A stretch of DNA of 23,844 nt, taken from IMG/VR virus record IMGVR_UViG_3300008113_001432, positions 1 to 23,844 of that record. One strand, given 5' to 3'. A program made the position numbers and the translations under genes. Position 1 is the first letter of the stretch, and each line of letters starts with the position of its first letter. The stretch comes from a virus. Under the pieces are notes generated by a model. It did no database searches. It worked only from the letters and a program-made list of their open reading frames with translations, and was not told the origin of the DNA. Shown here piece by piece: positions 5,105-17,408 of this stretch.

Positions 5105-6108
5105 TGTCGGCAACATATCACAGAATCATTCGTAAACTTGTAGTTGGTTTTGGTAGTTTGTTTGACAACATTACCTTAACTCGTTACAAAATAGATGGCA
5201 CCGAAGATAGAAAAATCAAGGTGCCTATTATCTATGCACCAAAAGAAAAGTATGCTGCTCGTTTACTAGGCGATCCAGATTTAAATAAAAAAGTTCAAAT
5301 CACATTACCTAGAATGTCTTTTGATTTGATAAGCATGGAATATGACGCATCAAGAAAACAAATAACAAATTTAAAGACTACAGCAGCATCAGGAAATCCT
5401 AACGTAAAACTTGCACAATATACTCCTGTGCCTTATAACTTTGATTTTTCATTATACATCTATGTCAGAAATATAGAAGATGGTACTCAAATAATAGAAC
5501 ACATATTGCCATTTTTTACTCCTGAGTATACAATAAAACTAAATCTTATTCCTACGATGGGAGTAACAAAAGAAGTACCAATTAATTTAAATTCAGTAAA
5601 TTACGACATTGAGTATGAAGGATTGCAAGACTCTGATGCTAGGGTAGTTATTTGGACTTTAAATTTTACAGTAAAAGCTTTTGTATATGGAGCAATATCT
5701 CAAGCAAAGATAATCAAAGATTCTTTTGTAAACATATTAGATTTAGATTCATCTGTCAATAATGGAAAAGTTACTTTTAATATGAGTCCTTCCGGTTTTG
5801 GAACATACAAGGAAGGAGAAACAGTTTATCAAGGATATTCATTAGATACAGCTAGTGCTACTGGTACAGTTGTATACTATAGTAATACCACAGATCAAAT
5901 GGTAATTACAGATATAAATGGTGGGTTTAAAGCAAATACAGAAATTATAGGACTAGATTCTTTTGCAGAATATACTCTATTATCAGTTGAAGGTGTAAAT
6001 GCAAATAATAAGATGGTAACAATTAATTCTTATGTGAACCCAGCAAATGCTACCATTAACTCAGCATATACTATTGTGACAACAGTGACGGAGTACAACA
6101 GTGACTAA
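5104..6108 (+). CDS. 15: Proximal tail sheath stabiliser gp15
   Basis: This 334-residue protein is gp15, the tail terminator that caps the proximal end of sheath and tube and joins the neck. Recognisable parts are LFDNITLTRYKIDGTEDRKI near the start, VPIIYAPKEKYAARLLGDPD, LPRMSFDLISMEYDASRKQ, and the central VPYNFDFSLYIYVRN...ILPFFTPEYTIKLN. It is longer than T4 gp15 (about 272 residues). The C-terminal part, from about residue 224, carries a module (EGETVYQGYSL...ASATGTVVYYS...GGFKANTEIIG) that resembles the one inserted in gp14. The start overlaps the gp14 stop, and the 3' end overlaps the gp16 start by 8 bases. Confidence 0.92.
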   Translation: MSATYHRIIRKLVVGFGSLFDNITLTRYKIDGTEDRKIKVPIIYAPKEKYAARLLGDPDLNKKVQITLPRMSFDLISMEYDASRKQITNLKTTAASGNPNVKLAQYTPVPYNFDFSLYIYVRNIEDGTQIIEHILPFFTPEYTIKLNLIPTMGVTKEVPINLNSVNYDIEYEGLQDSDARVVIWTLNFTVKAFVYGAISQAKIIKDSFVNILDLDSSVNNGKVTFNMSPSGFGTYKEGETVYQGYSLDTASATGTVVYYSNTTDQMVITDINGGFKANTEIIGLDSFAEYTLLSVEGVNANNKMVTINSYVNPANATINSAYTIVTTVTEYNSD

Positions 6109-6529
6109 ATTTGAAAAAAATATGAGTGATATCTTTGAAGTAGAGCCAAAACAAATTGCTAGTACAGATATTATAGTTAAAGAAGAAAGACCTGTCGTTC
6201 AAGTTGATTCTAAGTTAGAAGATGATCTAGAAAAAGATTATAATAAAGTCCGTCAGAACTATGAAGAAATTATCAACAAAGGAGTTGATGCCATAGATTC
6301 TATTCTTGAGATAGCCAGAGAATCTGAGCATCCAAGAGCATTTGAAGTTGCAGCTACCATGATTAAGAACGTAGCAGATGCAAACGAAAAGTTAATTATG
6401 TTACAGAAACAGATGCGTGAAATACAAAGAGCATCAGGAAAAGAACCACAAACAAGCACTAAAATAGATAAAGCCATATTCGTTGGTAGTACAGCAGATT
6501 TAAATAAAATGTTAAAAGGTAAGGAATGA
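6101..6529 (+). CDS. 16: Terminase small subunit gp16
   Basis: This 142-residue protein matches T4-like gp16, the DNA-recognition and regulatory subunit of the packaging motor. It has a charged N-terminal segment, a central helical region (DYNKVRQNYEEIINKGVDAI, then DSILEIARESEHPRAFEVAA and KNVADANEKLIMLQKQMREI) typical of the oligomerising coiled coil, and a C-terminal FVGSTADLNKMLKG. I choose the GTG start at 6101 because CGGAG (6089-6093) is well spaced before it and the coding frames overlap as elsewhere in this operon; the ATG at 6122 is the alternative and lacks a ribosome binding site. Unlike T4, the large subunit is not next: two extra genes intervene. Confidence 0.88.
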   Translation: MTKFEKNMSDIFEVEPKQIASTDIIVKEERPVVQVDSKLEDDLEKDYNKVRQNYEEIINKGVDAIDSILEIARESEHPRAFEVAATMIKNVADANEKLIMLQKQMREIQRASGKEPQTSTKIDKAIFVGSTADLNKMLKGKE

Positions 6530-7167
6530 AATACTTCAAACATTTAAGAGAAGAAGTTCAAGAAAGAAAAGATACAAAATCAAAGACACTTCATGCATTT
6601 GATATGGATGAAGTATTGTTTCATCACGATCATTCTAAACTAAAAGTTCATGTTAAAGATCAGCACGGTAAAAGAGTTCAGTCTTTGACTAACACAGAAT
6701 ATAATGACCATAAGTTGAAACATGGTCACAGTTATGACTATAGTGATTTTAAATCACACAAAGTGTTTCAGAAGTCTGCTCATCCTATTCATAAGATGAT
6801 TAATAAACTGAAGGCGATACACAAGAATAATAAAAATGTTGAGATTGTAACTGCAAGATCAGATATGGATGACAAGCATGGTTTTATGAAAACACTAAAG
6901 CATCACGGTATTGATCCTCACCACATTCACGTTCGTCGTGCTGGTAATGTTGGTGCACCTTCTCCAGCAGAAGCAAAACATAAAGTCATTGGTGATTTAG
7001 TTAAGAAGCATGGTTATAAGAAAGTTCATTTGTATGATGATTCTCATGCCAATCTGAAACACTTCAAAAAACTAAAAGATGATCATCCTGATGTTGAGTT
7101 TCATGCACACCATGTTAGTCATGATCCAGAAACAGGACATGTGAAAGTAACTACAACAAAAGCATAA
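6526..7167 (+). CDS. Histidine-rich HAD-superfamily phosphatase-like protein
   Basis: This 213-residue protein has the motifs of a HAD-superfamily hydrolase: motif I AFDMDEVLF with Asp26 and Asp28, motif II VTARSD with Thr109, a Lys near AEAKHK (151-153), and motif IV HLYDDSHANLK with Asp171/172. It would be a Mg-dependent phosphatase or phosphotransferase of unknown substrate; T4 Pnkp's 3'-phosphatase belongs to the same superfamily. It is extremely rich in His (about 31 of 213) and Lys. Its first residues, MKYFKHLREE, resemble the capsid-targeting sequence of T4 internal proteins (MKTYQEFIAE), suggesting packaging in the head. The start overlaps the gp16 stop (ATGA). Fold confident; substrate and location inferred. 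Confidence 0.72.
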   Translation: MKYFKHLREEVQERKDTKSKTLHAFDMDEVLFHHDHSKLKVHVKDQHGKRVQSLTNTEYNDHKLKHGHSYDYSDFKSHKVFQKSAHPIHKMINKLKAIHKNNKNVEIVTARSDMDDKHGFMKTLKHHGIDPHHIHVRRAGNVGAPSPAEAKHKVIGDLVKKHGYKKVHLYDDSHANLKHFKKLKDDHPDVEFHAHHVSHDPETGHVKVTTTKA

Positions 7168-7169
7168 GA

Positions 7170-7568
7170 ATGAAAAAGTTTAAAGAGTATATAAATGAAG
7201 CCGAAGAGGAGCACACATCCGAATGGATGTCAAGTTCTGACTTAGGTAAACATATACCAAAAACAGCACATAAGCAAATTCATAAAAGCAAAGAACATGG
7301 AATATTAATGAACCATGACCTTGCACATGGTGGTTCTGGACACTTGCGATATAGAGTTAAAACTAAATCGTATGATGGTTTTAAAGTAAAGAAAGTTCAA
7401 GTTGCATCAAGTAAAAAAGATAAAGATGGATTTACGCATCATGCCACATTTGGTTTAGCAGCAAAAAGTGCATATCCACATGATCATATGAAAACTCATC
7501 CAGAAAGAAAAGTTACTGTTCCTTGGTATATGAAAGATGATGAAATTAAAAAAACAACTGGAAGATAA
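7170..7568 (+). CDS. Hypothetical small basic protein, possible internal head protein
   Basis: This 132-residue protein is not recognised as an enzyme. Its N-terminus MKKFKEYINEAEEE closely resembles the capsid-targeting sequence of T4 internal proteins (MKTYQEFIAE before the gp21 cut), including an I-N-E/A site after residue 10 that fits the T4 prohead protease consensus (I/L)xE. The rest is rich in Lys and His (HKQIHKSKEHGILMNHDLAH, KTKSYDGFKVKKVQV, THHATFG), a composition shared with the HAD protein just upstream and suited to nucleic-acid association. It starts two bases after the HAD gene and its stop overlaps the gp17 start (TAATG), so it is translated within the terminase operon. A role as a packaged internal protein is my inference. 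Confidence 0.6.
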   Translation: MKKFKEYINEAEEEHTSEWMSSSDLGKHIPKTAHKQIHKSKEHGILMNHDLAHGGSGHLRYRVKTKSYDGFKVKKVQVASSKKDKDGFTHHATFGLAAKSAYPHDHMKTHPERKVTVPWYMKDDEIKKTTGR

Positions 7569-9262
7569 TGTCTATTAATAAAGATTCGTATCGTGATAAT
7601 CCTCTGCTCAAAAGAGCAGGAGTAAAAATTGAATATACTCAGGAGCAAATAGAAGAATACGTCAAGTGTTCTAAAGATCCTATTTACTTTGCGGAAAAAT
7701 ATATTCAAATCGTCAACGTTGACGAAGGTTTGATGCCGTTTAGAATGTGGGATTTTCAACGTGATATGATTCGTACATATCATGAGAATCGTTTCTCTAT
7801 TACCAAGTGTCCTCGTCAGGTTGGTAAAACTACTACTACGGTTGCATATCTACTCTGGCTTTCTATCTTTCAAGATACACAAAATATTGCTGTTCTTGCC
7901 AACAAAGGACAATTAGCTAGAGATATTCTTTCAAAATATCAACTAGCATACGAAAACTTACCTATGTGGTTACAGCAAGGTGTCATCACATGGAATAAAG
8001 GTTCTGTTGAACTTGAAAATGGATCAAAAGTTATTGCTGCTGCTACTTCATCATCAGCAGTTCGTGGTGGATCTTTCAATGTAGTATTCTTAGATGAATT
8101 CGCATTCGTTCCTTCAAATATAGCACACGAATTCTTCAATTCAGTCTATCCTGTTATCTCGTCTGGTAAATCTACAAAGATCATTATTGTATCTACTCCG
8201 AATGGTATGAACTTGTTCTACAAGTTATGGATGGATGCAAAGGACAAAAAGAACAACTATAAAACATTTGAGATTCATTGGTCACAAGTTCCAGGTAGAG
8301 ATGAAGCATGGCGTGAAGAAACTATTCGTAACACTTCTGAACGTCAGTTCCAACAAGAATTTGAAACTGAATTCTTAGGTTCAACAAACACACTTATTTC
8401 TGGTTCAAAACTACAACAACTTGTTTATATTGAGCCTGTAGAAAGAAAACGAATAGCCAAAGAAGAAATACTTGATATCTACGAGCAGCCTGTTATAGGT
8501 GATGGAGAAATTACAAAAGATCATGTGTATGCTATTTGTGTGGATGTAGCAGAAGGCAAGCATATGGATTTATCTGCATTGTCAGTCATAGACATATCTG
8601 AGACACCATATAGGCAAGTAGCTAAATATGCCAGCTCTTTTATTTCTCCGGTTCTGTTTCCCACTATCATATATAATACTGCCAAATATTACAACAATGC
8701 ATATGTATTGATAGAGATTAATAATACTCCACAGATTGCAGAGATTTTACATGGTGAAATGGAATATGAAAACGTGCTGAAGGTTCAAACAGGAAATAAA
8801 AAAGCACAACAAATTTCAGCAGGATTTGGTAGAGGAGTTCAACTTGGGGTCAAGATGAGTACCCAAGTAAAAAGAATTGGTTGTACTAACTTAAAAACAC
8901 TCATTGAAACAGACAAACTAATAGTAAAAGATTTTGATACCATTTCAGAGTTTACCTCATTCATTTCAGATGGAGTAACGTGGAGAGCAGAAGAAGGTAA
9001 AACTGATGATATGGTTATGTCATTAGTAATGTTCGCATGGATGACAACTCAGAAGTATTTCAAAGATGTTGTTAACCACGACTTGAGGAAACAACTACAG
9101 TTAGAAAAATTAAGTCAGACAGACGAAGAAACATCTCCTGCCGCCTTACTCATAAATGATGGATTAGATGTTCCATTTCTTGTTGAGGGTGGAGATGTTT
9201 GGGTTACAGGGAACCAAGGTGAAGTCTATGCTGAATACTTTAGAGAAATAATGAGAAACTGA
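7568..9262 (+). CDS. 17: Terminase large subunit gp17
   Basis: This 564-residue protein is the ATP-driven DNA packaging motor and headful nuclease. The N-terminal ATPase shows an adenine-binding region (FRMWDFQRDMIR, about 58-69), Walker A CPRQVGKTTT (81-90), Walker B VVFLDE (172-177) and coupling motif IIIVSTPNG (205-213). The C-terminal RNase H-like nuclease has candidate acidic residues Asp326 (AICVDVAEG), Glu383 (YVLIEINN) and Asp480/481 (KTDDMVMSLVMFAW). It is slightly shorter than T4 gp17 (610 residues). No intein or interruption is seen, though terminase genes of phages often carry them. Its start overlaps the preceding stop by one base. Confidence 0.97.
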   Translation: MSINKDSYRDNPLLKRAGVKIEYTQEQIEEYVKCSKDPIYFAEKYIQIVNVDEGLMPFRMWDFQRDMIRTYHENRFSITKCPRQVGKTTTTVAYLLWLSIFQDTQNIAVLANKGQLARDILSKYQLAYENLPMWLQQGVITWNKGSVELENGSKVIAAATSSSAVRGGSFNVVFLDEFAFVPSNIAHEFFNSVYPVISSGKSTKIIIVSTPNGMNLFYKLWMDAKDKKNNYKTFEIHWSQVPGRDEAWREETIRNTSERQFQQEFETEFLGSTNTLISGSKLQQLVYIEPVERKRIAKEEILDIYEQPVIGDGEITKDHVYAICVDVAEGKHMDLSALSVIDISETPYRQVAKYASSFISPVLFPTIIYNTAKYYNNAYVLIEINNTPQIAEILHGEMEYENVLKVQTGNKKAQQISAGFGRGVQLGVKMSTQVKRIGCTNLKTLIETDKLIVKDFDTISEFTSFISDGVTWRAEEGKTDDMVMSLVMFAWMTTQKYFKDVVNHDLRKQLQLEKLSQTDEETSPAALLINDGLDVPFLVEGGDVWVTGNQGEVYAEYFREIMRN

Positions 9263-9810: not shown

Positions 9811-10754
9811 ATACTACATTAAATCTATCTGGTGGCATAACAGCAGCACTAACAGATGGTGATATTAATGTTGGATATGACCTGTTTACAAATTCTGATG
9901 TTGTTGACATATCACTAGTTCTAACTGGAGGTGCAAGTGTTACAGTACAACAGTACGTCATTGATAATGTCGTTACTCCTGCAGGAAGCGTAACAGGTCG
10001 TTCTGGAGATTCTGTAGCATTTATTTCTCCAAGATATTCTGATGTTGTAAACCAATCTGGTGGAGAAACTGATAATATTAAAAATTGGTTGGAAACATTA
10101 GCTCGTTCAAGCTCTTATACTGTTACAGATTCCGGATGGAAATACATGTACGACAAGTATAATGGTGTGTACCGCTATGTTCCACTAAATGGTGACATTG
10201 CAGGATTATGTGCATTTACAGATCAAGTTCGTGATCCATGGTTCTCACCAGCAGGATTCAATCGTGGTGCAATTAAGAATGCTGTTAAGCTGTCTTGGAA
10301 TCCAAATCAAACACAAAGAGATATTCTATATCCTTTAGGTGTTAACCCAGTGGTTACCTTCCCTGGACAAGGAACAGTTCTCTATGGTGACAAAACATTG
10401 CAATCTAAACCATCAGCATTTGATAGAATCAATGTTCGTCGTCTATTCATTACTCTTGAGAAAGCAATTTCTAGAGCAGCAAAGTTCTCGTTGTTTGAAT
10501 TTAACGATGACTTTACAAGAGCCCAATTTGTAGCACTTGTTGCTCCATTCCTGCGTGATGTACAAGGTCGTCGTGGTATCTATGACTTCCGTGTTGTTTG
10601 CGATACAACAAACAACACACCACAAGTTATTGATAACAATCAATTTGTTGGAGATATTTACATCAAGCCTGCTCGTTCTATCAACTTTATCAGACTTAAC
10701 TTTATTGCAGTTGGAACAGGAGTTCAGTTCACAGAAGTTACTGGTGCTATCTAA
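9774..10754 (+). CDS. 18: Tail sheath gp18, C-terminal part (frame broken)
   Basis: This frame is open from 9756 and continues the sheath protein after the apparent one-base deletion. It reads AANTTFARTAAVNTTLNLSG, then SVAFISPRYSDVV and the highly conserved sheath core YKYMYDKYN-like segment (SGWKYMYDKYNGVYRYVPLN), GDIAGLCAFTDQVRDPWFSP and AGFNRGAIKNAVKLSWNPN. The C-terminal domain with INVRRLFITLEKAISRAAKF, FRDVQGRRGIYDFRVVCD-like sequence and IYIKPARSINFIRLNFIAVG is the most conserved part of all contractile sheaths and makes the inter-subunit contacts. There is no ATG before the conserved region; the first start-like codon is a TTG at 10089, with no good ribosome binding site. It is therefore best read as part of one gene with 9328-9810. 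The restored length, about 475, is well below T4 gp18 (659). Confidence 0.88.
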   Translation, partial: AANTTFARTAAVNTTLNLSGGITAALTDGDINVGYDLFTNSDVVDISLVLTGGASVTVQQYVIDNVVTPAGSVTGRSGDSVAFISPRYSDVVNQSGGETDNIKNWLETLARSSSYTVTDSGWKYMYDKYNGVYRYVPLNGDIAGLCAFTDQVRDPWFSPAGFNRGAIKNAVKLSWNPNQTQRDILYPLGVNPVVTFPGQGTVLYGDKTLQSKPSAFDRINVRRLFITLEKAISRAAKFSLFEFNDDFTRAQFVALVAPFLRDVQGRRGIYDFRVVCDTTNNTPQVIDNNQFVGDIYIKPARSINFIRLNFIAVGTGVQFTEVTGAI

Positions 10755-10760
10755 TAAATA
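10753..10760 (+). promoter_or_regulatory. Candidate late promoter for gp19
   Basis: AATAAATA (7 of 8 to TATAAATA) overlaps the gp18 stop and lies about 20 bases before the gp19 ATG, which has AAGGAG at 10768-10773. If used, it would give the tube protein its own very short-leader transcript in addition to read-through from gp18. Confidence 0.4.
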
Positions 10761-10779
10761 AAAGAACAAGGAGAAAAGA

Positions 10780-11322
10780 ATGGCTTTTAATGTATCAGAG
10801 TTCAGAGCAAATATGATTGGGGACGGTGCCCGTCCTAATCTATTTTCTGTGACATTAATCTTTCCAACAATAGCAGCAAATGGTGCCGCAGCAGGATCTA
10901 GAGCAACATTTATGGCTAAGTCTGCACAACTGCCTGGCTCTACTGTGGGAACTGTTCCTGTATTTTATTTTGGTCGTGAATTGAAGTTTGCAGGAAACAG
11001 AACATTCCCAGATTGGACACTAACTATCATCAATGATGAAGATTTCTCAATCAGAAATTCTTTAGAATCATGGATGAATGCAATCAACAGTCATGCAGGA
11101 AACGTTCGTAATGCACAAGCGTCAAATCCAGCAGGTTATACTGTTGATGCTGAAGTTACACAATATGGAAAAACAGGCAATATTCTTAAGAAGTATACAT
11201 TTGTTGGATTGTTCCCAGTAGATGTAGCTCCAATTGATTTAGATTGGGGATCAAACGATACGATTGAAGAATATACTGCTACTTTTGCATATCAGTGGTG
11301 GCAAGCAGATACAACAACTTAA
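10780..11322 (+). CDS. 19: Tail tube protein gp19
   Basis: This 180-residue protein is the inner tail tube subunit, through which DNA passes, surrounded by the gp18 sheath. Evidence: MAFNVSEFRANMIGDGARPN, followed by LFSVTLIFP, then SAQLPGSTVGTVPVFYFGRE, LTIINDEDFSIRNSLESWMN, and a C-terminal TATFAYQWWQAD. Length is close to T4 gp19 (163 residues). It has a strong ribosome binding site (AAGGAG) 6 bases before the ATG and is followed by a hairpin, as expected for a highly expressed late gene. Its sequence shows visible similarity to the gp3 homologue encoded at 17495-18025 (LPG, NED and a C-terminal F-Y-W pattern). Confidence 0.95.
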   Translation: MAFNVSEFRANMIGDGARPNLFSVTLIFPTIAANGAAAGSRATFMAKSAQLPGSTVGTVPVFYFGRELKFAGNRTFPDWTLTIINDEDFSIRNSLESWMNAINSHAGNVRNAQASNPAGYTVDAEVTQYGKTGNILKKYTFVGLFPVDVAPIDLDWGSNDTIEEYTATFAYQWWQADTTT

Positions 11323-11335
11323 TTTGATTTATAAT

Positions 11336-11354
11336 GGAGAGCCTCTGGCTCTCC
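11336..11354 (+). terminator. Hairpin between gp19 and gp20, possible attenuating terminator
   Basis: A perfect 8-bp stem GGAGAGCC/GGCTCTCC with loop TCT lies 13 bases after the gp19 stop. The following sequence is T-rich but lacks an uninterrupted T run (TCATGTTATTTTGATTTT), so it may stop transcripts only partly or protect the 3' end of gp19 mRNA, letting less message reach the portal gene. Confidence 0.55.
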
Positions 11355-11392
11355 TCATGTTATTTTGATTTTATAATGCAAGGAGAAACATT

Positions 11393-13129
11393 TTGGCGCT
11401 AAACCTATTTGGCTTTACCATATCAAGACAGAAGGCTGAAGAAGATTCGTTAGTTCAGCAATCATTCGCTCCACCGAGTAGCGATGATGGCGCATTGACG
11501 ATTACTTCTGCGGCCTATTATGGTACATATGTTGATTTAGATGGTACTGCAAAAAATGAAGTAGAACTAATTTCTCGATATAGAGAAATGGCTATGCAAC
11601 CGGAGATTGAATCTGCTATTGATGACATTATCAATGAGTCTATTGTACAAGACGATGATGGTAGGAATGTCAAGTTAATTATGGATGCGTTAAAGCAACC
11701 GGAGAAAATTAAAAAAGCAATATTGGAAGAATTTAATACTGTCTTGAGACTACTGAATTATAGTAACATGGCTCAAGATATTTTCAGAAGATATTATATT
11801 GATGGTAGATTATTCTATCATATTATTATTGATAGAGAAAATCCTATTGGTGGTATCAAAGAATTACGTTATATTGACCCAAGAAAAATACGCAAGGTTC
11901 GTGAATTAAGAAAAAAGAAAGATGAGAGAACTGGCGTAGAAATCATGGCTGTCATTAATGAATATTACATTTATAACGACAAAGCAATTACTGGTACTCA
12001 GTCAAACTATGGACCAGTAGGCACAAGAATTACAAAAGACTCCATCGTCAATATTAATTCAGGTTTGATGGATTCTCGTAGAGCAGTTGTTCTCTCATAC
12101 TTACACAAGGCAATTAAGCCTTTGAATCAGTTGCGTATGATTGAAGATGCAACTGTCATCTATCGTATTTCAAGAGCACCAGAACGTAGAATTTTCTACA
12201 TTGATGTAGGTAACTTACCAAAACTTAAAGCAGAACAATATCTGCGTGATATCATGGTCAAGTACAAGAATAAACTTGTTTATGATGCCAATACAGGTGA
12301 AGTTCGTGATGACCGTAAGTTCCTATCAATGATGGAAGATTTCTGGTTACCTCGTAGAGAAGGTGGCAAAGGAACAGAGATCACCACATTACCTGGTGGT
12401 CAAAACCTTGGTGAACTAGAAGATGTAAAATATTTTGAAAAGAAATTATATAAATCACTCAATGTGCCAATTTCTAGATTAGAATCATCTTCCGGTTTCA
12501 CTATCGGACGTTCATCTGAAATTACCAGAGATGAATTAAAGTTTGCAAAGTTCATTGATAGACTGCGTAACAAGTTTGCTGAATTATTTGATCAAGTATT
12601 GAGAATACAATGTGTTCTAAAAGGTATCTGTACTGATGCTGAATTTACAGAATTCAAAGAACACATGTATTATGACTTCATCAAAGATAATAATTTCTCA
12701 GAACTTAAAGAAGCAGAATTGATGGCAAACAGATTAAGTCTTTTGCAACAAGTTGATCCTTATACTGGAACTTATTATTCAATGGGTTGGATTCGTAGAA
12801 ATGTTCTACGCATGGATGATGAAGAAATCAAACTCATTGATAGAGAAATTGATGACGAAAAGAAAGCTGGTTTTGAAGTGCCGACTGAAGTGCAAAATGC
12901 TGTCACACAACAAAAGATGATGACTGACATCCAAATGGATGCACAATCACAACAGATGGCACAACAGCAAGATATGGCAGCACAACAAAATAATACCCAA
13001 GAGCCAGAACAAACTTCTGCTGCTGATACACAAAAGTCTCAACAGAGAAAACCTAAAGCGGTTAATTCATCTGCCGATTTAAGTTTATCTGAAGATTCAA
13101 TAGTAAGAAGATTGACAAGAATATTATAA
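11393..13129 (+). CDS. 20: Portal vertex protein gp20
   Basis: This 578-residue protein is the dodecameric portal through which DNA is packaged and on which prohead assembly starts. It opens ALNLFGFTISRQKAEEDSL and contains SRYREMAMQPEIESAIDDII, LRYIDPRKIRKVRELRKKKD, YLHKAIKPLNQLRMIEDATV and YRISRAPERRIFYIDVGNLP, all hallmarks of T4-like gp20. The start is TTG at 11393: AAGGAG (11380-11385) is 7 bases before it, and the nearby ATG at 11376 is in another frame. A TTG start plus the preceding hairpin could keep expression low, fitting the need for only twelve copies per head. The C-terminal 80 residues are Gln-rich (QMAQQQDMAAQQNN), extending it beyond T4 gp20 (524). Confidence 0.96.
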   Translation: MALNLFGFTISRQKAEEDSLVQQSFAPPSSDDGALTITSAAYYGTYVDLDGTAKNEVELISRYREMAMQPEIESAIDDIINESIVQDDDGRNVKLIMDALKQPEKIKKAILEEFNTVLRLLNYSNMAQDIFRRYYIDGRLFYHIIIDRENPIGGIKELRYIDPRKIRKVRELRKKKDERTGVEIMAVINEYYIYNDKAITGTQSNYGPVGTRITKDSIVNINSGLMDSRRAVVLSYLHKAIKPLNQLRMIEDATVIYRISRAPERRIFYIDVGNLPKLKAEQYLRDIMVKYKNKLVYDANTGEVRDDRKFLSMMEDFWLPRREGGKGTEITTLPGGQNLGELEDVKYFEKKLYKSLNVPISRLESSSGFTIGRSSEITRDELKFAKFIDRLRNKFAELFDQVLRIQCVLKGICTDAEFTEFKEHMYYDFIKDNNFSELKEAELMANRLSLLQQVDPYTGTYYSMGWIRRNVLRMDDEEIKLIDREIDDEKKAGFEVPTEVQNAVTQQKMMTDIQMDAQSQQMAQQQDMAAQQNNTQEPEQTSAADTQKSQQRKPKAVNSSADLSLSEDSIVRRLTRIL

Positions 13130-13164: not shown

Positions 13165-13362
13165 ATGAATACCAGAGCAATTATAGATTATGCAATTCAA
13201 GATGACGCCGCAGCAATGCGTGATGCTCTTTATGCTGAAATTCAAGACAGAGTACATTCACATATTGAAATGAAGAAGCAAGAGATTGCACACGGACTAG
13301 TTACACAAGAGGAAGATTCTGAAGCTTCTGTTGAAACAGAAGAAGGAATTACAGAAGAATGA
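13165..13362 (+). CDS. 67: Prohead core protein gp67-like
   Basis: This 65-residue protein has the T4 gp67 plan: a helical N-terminal half (IIDYAIQDDAAAMRDALYAE, then a KKQEIAHGLV segment) and a strongly acidic C-terminal tail (EEDSEASVETEEGITEE). It follows the portal gene directly, as gene 67 does in T4. gp67 is a core component needed for correct prohead shape and is degraded by gp21 protease. T4 gp67 is slightly longer (80 residues). Its stop overlaps the next start (ATGA). Identification rests on position, size and charge pattern, with some residue similarity in the helical half. Confidence 0.75.
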   Translation: MNTRAIIDYAIQDDAAAMRDALYAEIQDRVHSHIEMKKQEIAHGLVTQEEDSEASVETEEGITEE

Positions 13363-13850
13363 AATCACTAAAAGATTTTATTGCGAGAGATAAGCTAGAA
13401 GAAGATATTGATGGCATGCCTGGTGTGTTTACATCAAAGCCATCAGATCCTCCACAGATTCTTATTATGCGTAGAAAATCTATTCGTGAATTTCCAAATG
13501 GACAACGTGTTGCCTTATATCAGGTTGATAAGTTAAATAGGTATATTACTATACCATATCAGGTCAAACAATGGGCAAACGAAGAAACAGAATTACAATT
13601 AGAGCCAATAGAAGAAAATGTAATGCATCATTTGAAGAACATTATTGACAATAGTCAAGCTAAGCCAGTCAAATTTAAAGATGGTTCTTCAATGAAAGTT
13701 GATGTACAAACAGCAAATGCTATTTTAAAAGTACATGGTGCAGTAAACGACGAGAACAAAGAAAAGATTTCTCAAATGGCTCATAAGAGTAAAAACCATT
13801 TTAAAAAAGTAGCAGATTTTGCATGGAAACATGTAACTTATAAAAGTTAA
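13359..13850 (+). CDS. Putative prohead core protein in gene 68 position
   Basis: This 163-residue protein lies where T4 has gene 68 (141 residues, prohead core). Direct similarity to T4 gp68 is not obvious to me, so no symbol is given. The N-terminus MKSLKDFIARDKLEEDIDG resembles capsid-targeting sequences of T4 internal proteins. Then come a beta-like part (ILIMRRKSIREFPNGQRVAL, DKLNRYITIPYQV), an acidic helix (EETELQLEPIEENVMHHLKN) and a basic C-terminal helix (KSKNHFKKVADFAWKHV). It starts by ATGA overlap with gp67, so the two are probably translated together during head assembly. A core or internal head role is inferred from context. Confidence 0.6.
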   Translation: MKSLKDFIARDKLEEDIDGMPGVFTSKPSDPPQILIMRRKSIREFPNGQRVALYQVDKLNRYITIPYQVKQWANEETELQLEPIEENVMHHLKNIIDNSQAKPVKFKDGSSMKVDVQTANAILKVHGAVNDENKEKISQMAHKSKNHFKKVADFAWKHVTYKS

Positions 13851-14220: not shown

Positions 14221-14865
14221 ATGAAACTTATCAAAGAAGTTTTTGAAACTGTTGAATATCTCACAGAAGAAGCAGACGGACAAAAACAATTATACATTCA
14301 AGGGCCATTTCTTGTCTCAGAAAAGAAAAACAAAAATGGTCGCCTGTATGAATTCAATACGATGAAAAAAGAAGTTCATCGTTATACAGAAGATTATATC
14401 AATAAAAATCGTGCTTATGGAGAACTGGGACATCCAGATTCTCCCACAATCAACTTAGACCGTGTTGCTATTCTTATCAAAGGATTGCATGAAGATGGTA
14501 CTCAGTGGATTGGTAAAGCAAAAGTGTTGGACACACCAATGGGTAACATTGCTAGAAAACTTATTGAAGGTGGAGGATGTGTAGGTGTTTCCTCTAGAGG
14601 TATGGGTTCTCTAAAAAATGTAAACGGTGTTAATGTGGTTCAACCAGACTTTTATCTTGCCACAGCGGCTGATATTGTAGCAGATCCTTCCGCACCTGGA
14701 GCTTTTGTTCAAGGTATTATGGAAGGCAAGGAATGGATGTTAGTAGAGGGCGTATGGACAGAGGTAGATCAAACTCATGCTATTCAGCAAATCAAACAAG
14801 CGAGTAGAAAAGAGATTGAACAAGTAAGTCTACGCATATTTGAAAACTTCATAAAAAAACTTTAA
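14221..14865 (+). CDS. 21: Prohead maturation protease gp21
   Basis: This 214-residue protein is the T4-type prohead serine protease of the herpesvirus-assemblin-like fold (peptidase family U9/S77). Visible motifs are RAYGELGHPDSP with the probable catalytic His71, and GCVGVSSRGMGSL with the nucleophile at Ser124 or Ser125. A substrate-pocket strand region (YIQGPFLVSEKKNKNGRLYE) precedes them. It cuts core, internal and capsid proteins after (I/L)xE; matching sites occur here in gp22 (LSE/A) and gp23 (LNE/A). Length matches T4 gp21 (212). It lies directly before the scaffold gene that it processes. Confidence 0.93.
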   Translation: MKLIKEVFETVEYLTEEADGQKQLYIQGPFLVSEKKNKNGRLYEFNTMKKEVHRYTEDYINKNRAYGELGHPDSPTINLDRVAILIKGLHEDGTQWIGKAKVLDTPMGNIARKLIEGGGCVGVSSRGMGSLKNVNGVNVVQPDFYLATAADIVADPSAPGAFVQGIMEGKEWMLVEGVWTEVDQTHAIQQIKQASRKEIEQVSLRIFENFIKKL

Positions 14866-14905: not shown

Positions 14906-16054
14906 ATGCCTAAATTTAATCTTTCTGAAGCCGCTAAGGAAATTTTAGACGCATCTATTGCATCTAAAAGAGGTGGTCAAGATCAACCTTCAAAGCTACC
15001 ATCAAGCATTGCTTATGGTACACAAGATGTAGGTTCAATCGGTGACGATCCAGAAAAAACAGATGAGACACTACCTGATTATACAAAAGGAGTTCCTACA
15101 GCAACTCCTCCAGGTGCAACTCCTCCTGTTGGTTCAGAGCCTATGAAGAAGTTATCAGGTCAACCACAAGAAACAATGGGTCGTGGTGATCTAAGAACAA
15201 TTCAGCAATCAGATGCTACAGACATGGCTAACATCCGTGATCGTATCGCTGGTAAATTGGCACCACAAACAATGTCAATGAATCCAGGTGCTACATTCCA
15301 ATCATATCACGAAAGCATTGATATGACTGATGATGTTGCTGCTCTGCTAGAAGGTGAGAACCTATCTGAAGAATTCAGAAACAAAGCAACAACTATTTTT
15401 GAAGCTGCTGTTCTATCAAGAGTAGAAACTATTGTTGAAGCAATGGAAACTAATCTGACAGAAGAATTCCAAGTTGCTGTTGAGCAAATCAAGGAAGACT
15501 TAGCAGAAAAGCTAGATGAATATCTAAACTATATGGTTGAAGAATGGATGCAACAAAATGAACTCGCAATTGAAAGAGGCCTACGTGCCGAAATCGTTGA
15601 AGAATTCATGGGCAAACTACGCAATCTATTCGTAGAATCATACATTGATATTCCAGAAGAAAAAGTTGATGCAGTAGAAGAACTAGTTGGTCGTGTTGAA
15701 GAACTGGAAGACTCTCTAAACGAAGAAATTCAAAAGAATGTTGAGTTCAAAAAAGCGATTAACGAACACAAAAAAATTGAGGCTATCCACGCAGCATGTG
15801 AAGGCCTTACTCAGACTCAAGTAGAAAAAGTCAAAGCACTTGCAGAAAGTCTTGAATTTACTACTGAAGAAGATTTTGGAGAAAAACTAGAGACAATCAA
15901 GGAATCATATTTTCCAAGTCAAGTTAAAGCTGCCGAATCGTCTGACCTGAACGAAGAAATTCAAATTGATGACGAAGATAAAAAAGGTAACAAATCTTCA
16001 GATCCAATGATGAATGCTTACGCTCAAGCTATCACTAAAACTTTGGCAAAATAA
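14906..16054 (+). CDS. 22: Prohead scaffold (core) protein gp22
   Basis: This 382-residue protein is the main scaffolding protein of the prohead. It starts MPKFNLSEAAKEILDASI, has a Pro/Gly/Thr-rich disordered region (about 28-90), then a long helical, acidic coiled-coil part (about 135-310) with runs such as EEFQVAVEQIKEDLAEKLDE and VDAVEELVGRVEELEDSLNE, and ends NAYAQAITKTLAK, typical of T4-like gp22. It is longer than T4 gp22 (269), mostly from the low-complexity N-terminal segment. LSE/A near residue 9 fits the gp21 protease consensus, consistent with its degradation during maturation. Strong ribosome binding site; late promoter box directly upstream. Confidence 0.93.
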   Translation: MPKFNLSEAAKEILDASIASKRGGQDQPSKLPSSIAYGTQDVGSIGDDPEKTDETLPDYTKGVPTATPPGATPPVGSEPMKKLSGQPQETMGRGDLRTIQQSDATDMANIRDRIAGKLAPQTMSMNPGATFQSYHESIDMTDDVAALLEGENLSEEFRNKATTIFEAAVLSRVETIVEAMETNLTEEFQVAVEQIKEDLAEKLDEYLNYMVEEWMQQNELAIERGLRAEIVEEFMGKLRNLFVESYIDIPEEKVDAVEELVGRVEELEDSLNEEIQKNVEFKKAINEHKKIEAIHAACEGLTQTQVEKVKALAESLEFTTEEDFGEKLETIKESYFPSQVKAAESSDLNEEIQIDDEDKKGNKSSDPMMNAYAQAITKTLAK

Positions 16055-16085: not shown

Positions 16086-17408
16086 ATGTATCTTTCCGAA
16101 CAACTAAAACAAAAATGGGCTCCTGTTCTGGAACATCCAGAACTAGATGCAATTAAGGACCCATATAAGAAGGCTGTTACAGCCATGGTTCTTGAGAACC
16201 AACAACAAGCTATGCAACAAGACGCTGGTTTGTTAAACGAAGCAATTCCAGGTCCTACTAACGTTACAGGTGGTGTTCAGAACTTTGACCCAATCCTGAT
16301 CTCTTTAGTTCGTCGTGCATTGCCTAACCTGATTGCATATGATGTTGCTGGCGTTCAGCCAATGACAGGTCCTACAGGACTGATCTTTGCAATGAGAGCA
16401 AGATATGCTAACCAAAATGGTTCAGAAGCTTTCTACAACGAAGCTAACACAATCTTCTCTGGTACTAGCTCACAAAACAACCCATACGGTTTTGCAGGTA
16501 CTCCAGCAACTGACGTTGGCACTAACCCTGTTGCAAGTCTAGCAGCTAATGCTTACACAACTGGTATTGCACTGCCAACTGCTACTGCTGAATTCTTGGG
16601 TTCAGACAGTAATGCTGTATTCCAGCAAATGGCATTTAGCATTGAGAAAGTTTCCGTAACTGCTCAATCACGTGCCCTGAAAGCTGAATACTCACTAGAA
16701 CTAGCACAAGACTTGAAAGCAATTCATGGTCTGGATGCTGAGACAGAACTAAGCAACATTCTGTCAACAGAAATTCTAGCTGAGATCAACCGTGAAGTTA
16801 TTCGTACAATCTACACCACTGCTGTTGCTGGTGCTCAGTATGGTACAACAACTGCTGGTTACTTTGACTTAGACACAGACTCAAATGGCCGTTGGTCAGT
16901 TGAGCGTTTCAAAGGTCTAATTTTCCAAATTGAGCGTGATGCAAACGTTATTGCAAAGCAGACTCGTAGAGGAAAAGGTAACGTTCTGATCGTTTCTTCA
17001 GACGTTGCTTCAGCTATGGCTATGGCTGGTGTTCTACAATACACACCTGCTCTACAAGCTGATCTGCAAGTAGATGACACAGGCAATACCTTTGCTGGTA
17101 TGCTACATGGACGTATCAAAGTGTACATCGATCCATACTTCGGTGGATACACAAGCAACCAAGAACTAGTAACAGTTGGATATAAGGGTTCTTCTCCTTA
17201 TGACGCTGGTCTGTTCTACTGCCCATACGTTCCTCTACAAATGGTTCGTGCTGTTGACCAGTATACATTCCAACCAAAAATTGGATTCAAGACTCGTTAC
17301 GGTATGGTAGCTAACCCATTTGCTGAAGGTATCGTAAAAGGCAATGGTAATCTAGATGCTCGTAGCAATGTATACTACAGAATCTTCGGTGTTAAGAATC
17401 TGATGTAA
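16086..17408 (+). CDS. 23: Major capsid protein gp23
   Basis: This 440-residue protein has the HK97-type T4 capsid sequence: a cleavable N-terminal segment (MYLSEQLKQKWAPVLEHPEL), then GGVQNFDPILISLVRRALPN and LIAYDVAGVQPMTGPTGLIF, which are diagnostic gp23 motifs, later SIEKVSVTAQSRALKAEYSL and a C-terminal YFQPKIGFKTRYGMV-like stretch. LLNE/AIPGP places the gp21 cut after Glu52, leaving a mature chain of about 388 residues; T4 gp23 is cut after residue 65. Codons are less AT-rich than in neighbouring genes, with frequent GTTC, CGT and CTG-type choices, as expected of a highly expressed gene. It is followed by a strong terminator. Confidence 0.98.
   Translation: MYLSEQLKQKWAPVLEHPELDAIKDPYKKAVTAMVLENQQQAMQQDAGLLNEAIPGPTNVTGGVQNFDPILISLVRRALPNLIAYDVAGVQPMTGPTGLIFAMRARYANQNGSEAFYNEANTIFSGTSSQNNPYGFAGTPATDVGTNPVASLAANAYTTGIALPTATAEFLGSDSNAVFQQMAFSIEKVSVTAQSRALKAEYSLELAQDLKAIHGLDAETELSNILSTEILAEINREVIRTIYTTAVAGAQYGTTTAGYFDLDTDSNGRWSVERFKGLIFQIERDANVIAKQTRRGKGNVLIVSSDVASAMAMAGVLQYTPALQADLQVDDTGNTFAGMLHGRIKVYIDPYFGGYTSNQELVTVGYKGSSPYDAGLFYCPYVPLQMVRAVDQYTFQPKIGFKTRYGMVANPFAEGIVKGNGNLDARSNVYYRIFGVKNLM

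Follow-up and report, generated by a model that had tools for sequence, protein, structure and literature searches.

Why does a T4-like phage carry two genes between those for its terminase subunits, and why do both encoded proteins begin in the manner of T4 internal head proteins? The question was raised by a first-pass annotation of a 23,844-nucleotide stretch of viral DNA (the window), which proposed that an HAD-superfamily enzyme and a small basic protein are packaged inside the capsid and perhaps injected with the DNA. The window belongs to a late head and tail region; the phage is T4-like and related to Kyanoviridae. Its TerL is at most about 54% identical to those of sequenced phages, the best matches being cyanophages, and nearly identical DNA was found in a 163-kb viral contig (G001), which has a sister contig (G002). 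The phage group is uncultured, freshwater, and T4-like.

Two genes between the terminase genes

Both open reading frames were found in the interval, and family matches identified the flanking genes as those for TerS and TerL (Table 1). The junctions, in the order TerS/HAD/small protein/TerL, are −4, +2, and −1 nt, so that the four genes look translationally coupled. The overlapping frames described earlier hold for the HAD gene with TerS and for the small gene with TerL, but not for the HAD and small genes themselves, which are 2 nt apart. Late-promoter-like TATAAATA sites occur only further downstream of the terminase-region genes. They lie on the + strand at window positions 13125, 14867, and 17470, 25 to 40 nt upstream of three head-region genes; this placement is as expected for T4-type late promoters, and their count alone is not above chance. 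The window also encodes, at 324-1421, a tail-fibre-like protein with repeated ...NTVYLQ..NDLQNTNITSVNTF... units.

Table 1. Features of the window that bear on the two inserted genes and on head assembly
Feature	Position	Strand	Remarks
Terminase small subunit TerS (gp16-like)	6101..6529	+	GTG start; PF11053 1.5e-12, phrog_445 1e-39
HAD-fold phosphatase-like protein, 213 aa	6526..7167	+	His 14.6%, pI 9.6
HAD capsid-targeting-like tag MKYFKHLREE	6526..6555	+	F4, L7, E9/E10; R8 variant
HAD motif I, D26-M-D28	6601..6609	+	Invariant aspartates
HAD motif II, T109 (IVTARSD)	6850..6852	+	Invariant
HAD motif III candidate, K151	6976..6978	+	Invariant
HAD motif IV, D171-D172	7036..7041	+	Invariant
Small basic Lys/His-rich protein, 132 aa	7170..7568	+	Without known family
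Small protein capsid-targeting-like tag MKKFKEYINE	7170..7199	+	Predicted gp21 cut after E10 (I8-N9-E10 / A11)
Terminase large subunit TerL (gp17-like)	7568..9262	+	PF03237, PF17289 (Terminase_6N/6C)
Probable prohead core protein (gp68 position), N-terminus MKSLKDFIARDKLEE	13359..13850	+	Between portal and protease genes; weak phrog_696
Prohead protease, gp21-like, Peptidase_S77	14221..14865	+	PF03420 2e-32; predicted to remove the tags
Capsid assembly scaffold, gp22-like core protein	14906..16054	+	PF25623 1e-69
Candidate gp21 site in major capsid protein, L50-N51-E52 / A53	16233..16244	+	Seen in the sequence; cut predicted

The HAD-superfamily identity proposed for the first protein was confirmed by family searches and structure prediction, with motifs I (DxD), II, III, and IV (DD) and the fold all present. 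The protein matched phrog_415, "polynucleotide kinase," in PHROGs (4e-9), as did 22/22 diverse relatives, and no family in Pfam. PF03767 (HAD subfamily IIIB acid phosphatase) was matched by 13/22 relatives at an E value of ≤0.01 (best, 2.2e-7), and the window protein itself gave no match at the cut-off. Residues D26, D28, T109, K151, D171, and D172 are invariant across the 22 relatives. The AF2 model is of moderate confidence (pLDDT 73, low over residues 1 to 12), and its best Foldseek match in the PDB was a solved HAD domain (E, 7e-4); a sequence profile search of the PDB found no relative. The protein thus has motifs and fold in common with the phage polynucleotide kinase-phosphatases of phrog_415 but lacks their kinase domain: a P-loop kinase domain was sought in its 213 residues, and only the HAD domain was present. 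A kinase-like domain sits on a separate tagged protein (G002:132373-134268). Motifs and fold are likewise shared with the subfamily IIIB acid phosphatases, to which the Pfam match is weak among relatives and lacking for the window protein. Our best guess for the substrate, from phrog_415, would be nucleotide or nucleic-acid end phosphates.

Searches with the 132-aa small protein against Pfam, PHROGs, NCBIfam, and PADLOC found nothing, and no relatives were found beyond its own phage group. Its AF2 model (pLDDT 72) contains helices and five strands, for which Foldseek returned no significant match. By analogy with the T4 internal proteins, it is probably co-packaged DNA-binding or inhibitor-type cargo.

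The shared His/Lys composition pointed out earlier is indeed unusual, at 14.6% and 9.8% His and a pI of about 9.6. Among the 154 G001 proteins that are 100 aa or longer, the HAD protein ranks first in His content; the small protein, called there with a later start, is listed second, and four tagged proteins occupy ranks 1, 2, 3, and 5 (chance, 2e-7). The corresponding ranks in G002 are 1, 3, 4, and 40, the last because the full-length NTase/kinase protein dilutes the His signal. His-richness as a general consequence of carrying a tag was rejected, since tagged S-CREM2 proteins and the tagged C48C1 DUF6267 protein are His-poor.

N-terminal tags in relatives and in virion proteomes

Alignment of 30 HAD N-termini revealed conservation at residues 1, 4, 7, 8, and 10 only. 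Position 4 has F in 29/30 and Y in 1/30; position 7 has F, Y, or L; position 8 has I, L, or V (mostly I or L) or else R; and E occupies position 10 in 30/30. Positions 2, 3, 5, 6, 9, 11, and 12 are freely variable. The tag of the small protein behaves alike: ten homologues share M1, F4, I8, and E10 without exception and mostly have Y or F at residue 7, the rest varying (MKKFKEYINE, MKFKEFIKES, MNSFIKYIKES, MKAFIEYIKES). Amber-suppressor work on T4 IPIII assigned targeting to residues 4 and 7 and processing to residues 8 and 10; the cutting site of gp21 follows L/I-x-E (PMC9026906). The conserved tag positions coincide with these mapped residues. The T4 likeness ascribed to both N-termini is therefore borne out by conservation in relatives at the T4-critical positions, the window HAD being an R8 variant.

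The predicted cleavage of the small protein fits the canonical gp21 site (INE/A), and the candidate site of the major capsid protein (LNE/A) has the same form. In the HAD tag of the window clade, with R at position 8, a cut would fit L7-R8-E9 and not position 10, placing Glu at P1', a less typical gp21 site. Besides the window, an S77 protease was found in all three tested HAD- or cargo-bearing contigs of >90 kb.

A tag at the chosen start was found in 33/37 HAD representatives (90% identity) of a family of at least ~45% identity. The tag is not a chance feature, since about 2% of genes match the pattern, that is, ~5 in 240 to 250, which partly are the tagged genes under study. Two representatives (L129 and L148) have the tag at an alternative start or behind a longer leader. 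In two others (L127:2525-4606 and L136:2300-4657), the HAD forms the C terminus of fusions of 693 or 785 aa that start with degraded tags (MILSFKEFSFK and MISFKKFLGG). Homologues that keep the HAD domain without the tag, which by the first-pass annotation would refute its proposal, were looked for, and the only ones encountered were two very distant huge-phage HADs (27 to 28% identity), in which the tag is absent.

Published virion proteomes, in the portions available, allowed the tag to be compared with virion presence. In S-CREM2, 4/219 coding sequences fit the strict tag pattern, and 4/4 are among the 52 virion proteins detected by mass spectrometry (P = 0.003): a SAM hydrolase, an APH-like kinase, gp136, and a cytidylyltransferase. 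A looser pattern was not significant in this phage (P = 0.14). In S-SCSM1, one of four tag-matching coding sequences, an NMNAT-like protein (MKSFLQFLKEA), is a listed virion protein, which is not significant by itself (P = 0.50); the combined P value for the two phages is about 0.009. The virion-detected cytidylyltransferase of S-SM1 begins with MKKFSAFLNEA (PMC3037559), so that the tagged enzyme has been detected in virions of three phages (S-SM1, S-CREM2, and S-SCSM1). These cyanophage cytidylyltransferase/NMNAT-like proteins (T4-GC190; tags MKKFSAFLNEA, MKSFLQFLKEA, and MKNFSSFLTEA in S-SM1, S-SCSM1, and S-CREM2, respectively) are homologous to the tagged NTase found alongside the HAD, but they are a different enzyme, and the available passages of the papers draw no link between tag and virion. 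The proteome authors also caution, in the same passages, against carry-over in CsCl preparations. As far as these portions extend, a link between such tags and virion presence is supported, and of the two phages tested genome-wide, one shows it weakly. In S-CREM2, the virion SAM hydrolase, the APH-like kinase, and a small gp13 have tags or tag-like N-termini (L236:3837-5081 and 10310-12846), and a Cas9-like protein adjoining those genes is also listed for the virion.

The terminase interval and other tagged genes

We compared 74 distinct TerS-TerL intervals; some had been retrieved with the HAD as the query, which biases the sample towards it. The terminase genes are adjacent in 46, and 28 intervals are occupied: 12 by the HAD with the small protein, 14 by the HAD without it, 1 by a different tagged protein (L244/L175), and 1 by an untagged HNH-like ORF. 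A tagged protein is thus present in 27/28 occupied intervals, with sampling that favours the HAD. Since the HAD is often present in phages that lack the small protein, a physical partnership of the two is at most putative. On the TerL tree, parsimony requires five or more changes of the HAD label, three of them forced by well-supported branches, and the small protein is restricted to one clade. By its gene content, the gap is an exchangeable slot for putative cargo. The different occupant (L175:2018-2989; L244-L251) is a tagged His-rich protein of 323 aa with a GTDF...GETK stretch reminiscent of PD-(D/E)XK nucleases.

The slot is already known in cyanophages, a point missed in the first-pass annotation: the available text describes the gp16-gp17 interval as a hot-spot of lineage-specific genes (PMC3037559; Sullivan 2010, citing Millard 2009). 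Many cyanophages carry metabolic genes there, whereas nearly all occupants found in the relatives of the window are tagged proteins. Tagged small proteins also lie upstream of TerL in S-CREM1 and S-SZBM1, and the S-CREM2 slot encodes two proteins, both in the available virion list and one of them tagged.

The HAD is also a member of a larger tagged set, again missed before. It lies within runs of tagged genes in nine relatives (L028, L126, L130, L135, L137, L138, L140, L141, and L149). The run in L135 comprises the HAD, a 424-aa protein (MIKFKDYLIEA), a DUF6267 protein (MINFKQYLLEA), and an NTase (MLNSFLRYLREA); that in L137, a 577-aa protein (MKSFKQFITEL), the HAD, a 436-aa protein (MLNFSNFLIEM), DUF6267 (MINFRGYLIEA), and NTase (MLKFKQFILKE); and that in L028, DUF6267 (MKSFISFLKEE), the HAD, and NTase (MKSFLELVEE). 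The tagged HAD neighbours of ~320 to 430 aa matched no family in Pfam. The phage of the window itself has a second tagged pair (G001:119772-121645, equal to L066:972-2845; also L075:13573-16640), consisting of DUF6267 (MQKFKTFLKEE) and an NTase/P-loop kinase fusion (MKRFSQLVEEQ), the latter interrupted by an assembly gap in G001 and 631 aa long in G002. The DUF6267 partners in S-PM2, S-SM1, and P-TIM40 are without a tag.

KxDG, EG, and K374 are largely conserved in DUF6267 relatives. An assignment of DUF6267 as an RNA/DNA ligase was not supported beyond these motifs: hhalign against T4 RnlB gave nothing (0.2%), and a profile search of the PDB found no ligase. Beside the tagged genes (L066:3827-6389, equal to G001:122627-125189, and L075:10595-13571) are charged proteins with EEVEQLDELS-type repeats, which resemble several consecutive gp21-type sites. 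A DUF6321 protein (L066:7525-8535, equal to G001:126325-127335) starts with MKTLKSFLQNEDLRQWF and has a second, internal tag-like stretch (MKSFRQFVTEV); in P-TIM40 and S-CREM1, DUF6321-like proteins with a tag are encoded close to TerL.

Proposed packaging and delivery, and alternatives

Taken together, the tag, the protease, the core protein, the composition, and the behaviour of relatives make packaging the best explanation. Capsid packaging of both proteins is well supported, and from the genes we infer their presence in the virion of this phage. In the fuller reading, which we consider likely, both are T4-type internal head proteins that are tagged, cut by a gp21-type protease, and partly injected. 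The two proteins would be made in the late operon with an N-terminal capsid-targeting sequence of 9 to 10 residues, which would bind each of them to the prohead core of the gp22 type. Afterwards, the gp21-type protease would remove the tag, so that a basic His/Lys-rich protein stays behind amid the DNA of the head, and, on T4 precedent, some of it would enter the host with the DNA at infection. There, the HAD protein would act as a phosphatase ahead of phage gene expression, with a nucleotide or nucleic-acid end phosphate as its most probable substrate. Phages of this group probably bring enzymes into the host with their DNA. Counting against this reading are the 1/4 result in S-SCSM1, the R8/Glu site of the HAD, the untagged DUF6267 partners, CsCl carry-over, and the looser-pattern result in S-CREM2.

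The closest precedent is provided by T4 IPI, IPII, IPIII, and Alt (MKTYQEFIAE), whose ten-residue N-terminal tag has the same key positions. Small basic proteins, a gp21-type protease in the genome, a late context, and exchangeable cargo are further likenesses. The systems differ in that the cargo here is an HAD-fold enzyme plus an unrelated, very His-rich small protein, in that the genes lie between terminase genes, with runs of three to five tagged genes in relatives, and in that the window pair is known from genes alone.

The proteins might instead be packaged and not delivered, as core or DNA-condensing parts of the head, the HAD acting in assembly or having an activity that goes unused in the host. 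Their Lys/His-rich basic composition suits contact with DNA and T4 IPIII has a role in head assembly (PMC9026906), but the catalytic residues are invariant across the 22 relatives, and the gene is absent at most adjacent TerS-TerL pairs and so is not a required core part there; we regard this alternative as unlikely. We find it harder still to believe that both are cytoplasmic late proteins whose N-terminal helix binds a scaffold, a membrane, or another partner: such a short motif of only ten residues matches about 2% of genes, and three tag-matching S-SCSM1 coding sequences are absent from the available virion list, but conservation falls on just the T4-critical positions, several unrelated proteins in one gene run carry the tag, and in the S-CREM2 data all four tagged proteins are in the virion. 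A role of both proteins in aiding DNA packaging would explain their position and translational coupling, but it is very improbable given that many phages carry the HAD gene away from TerS and TerL, that 46/74 TerS-TerL pairs are adjacent without it, that another tagged protein fills the interval in one relative, and that the HAD label changes repeatedly on the TerL tree.

Returning to packaged and delivered proteins, the motifs bring to mind a more speculative, rather doubtful idea, in which the HAD end-phosphatase, the P-loop kinase-NMNAT/cytidylyltransferase fusion, the KxDG ligase-like DUF6267, and further proteins, each with its own tag, would be co-packed and co-injected as a nucleotide or nucleic-acid repair kit. 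If true, it would mend DNA or tRNA damage inflicted by host defence, or NAD loss, before phage gene expression begins. With delivery itself, the capsid-targeting rule of T4 would come to cover enzymes as well as phages of this uncultured freshwater group. A simple sequence rule would then be available for recognizing virion-delivered proteins in T4-like phages, most of whose cargo is annotated as hypothetical. Delivery may also be a reason why cytidylyltransferase/NMNAT-like enzymes recur in cyanophage virion proteomes, where the authors, in the available passages, could not separate them from carry-over. Members of the tagged set are testable candidates for a role in counter-defence or host take-over when the DNA enters.
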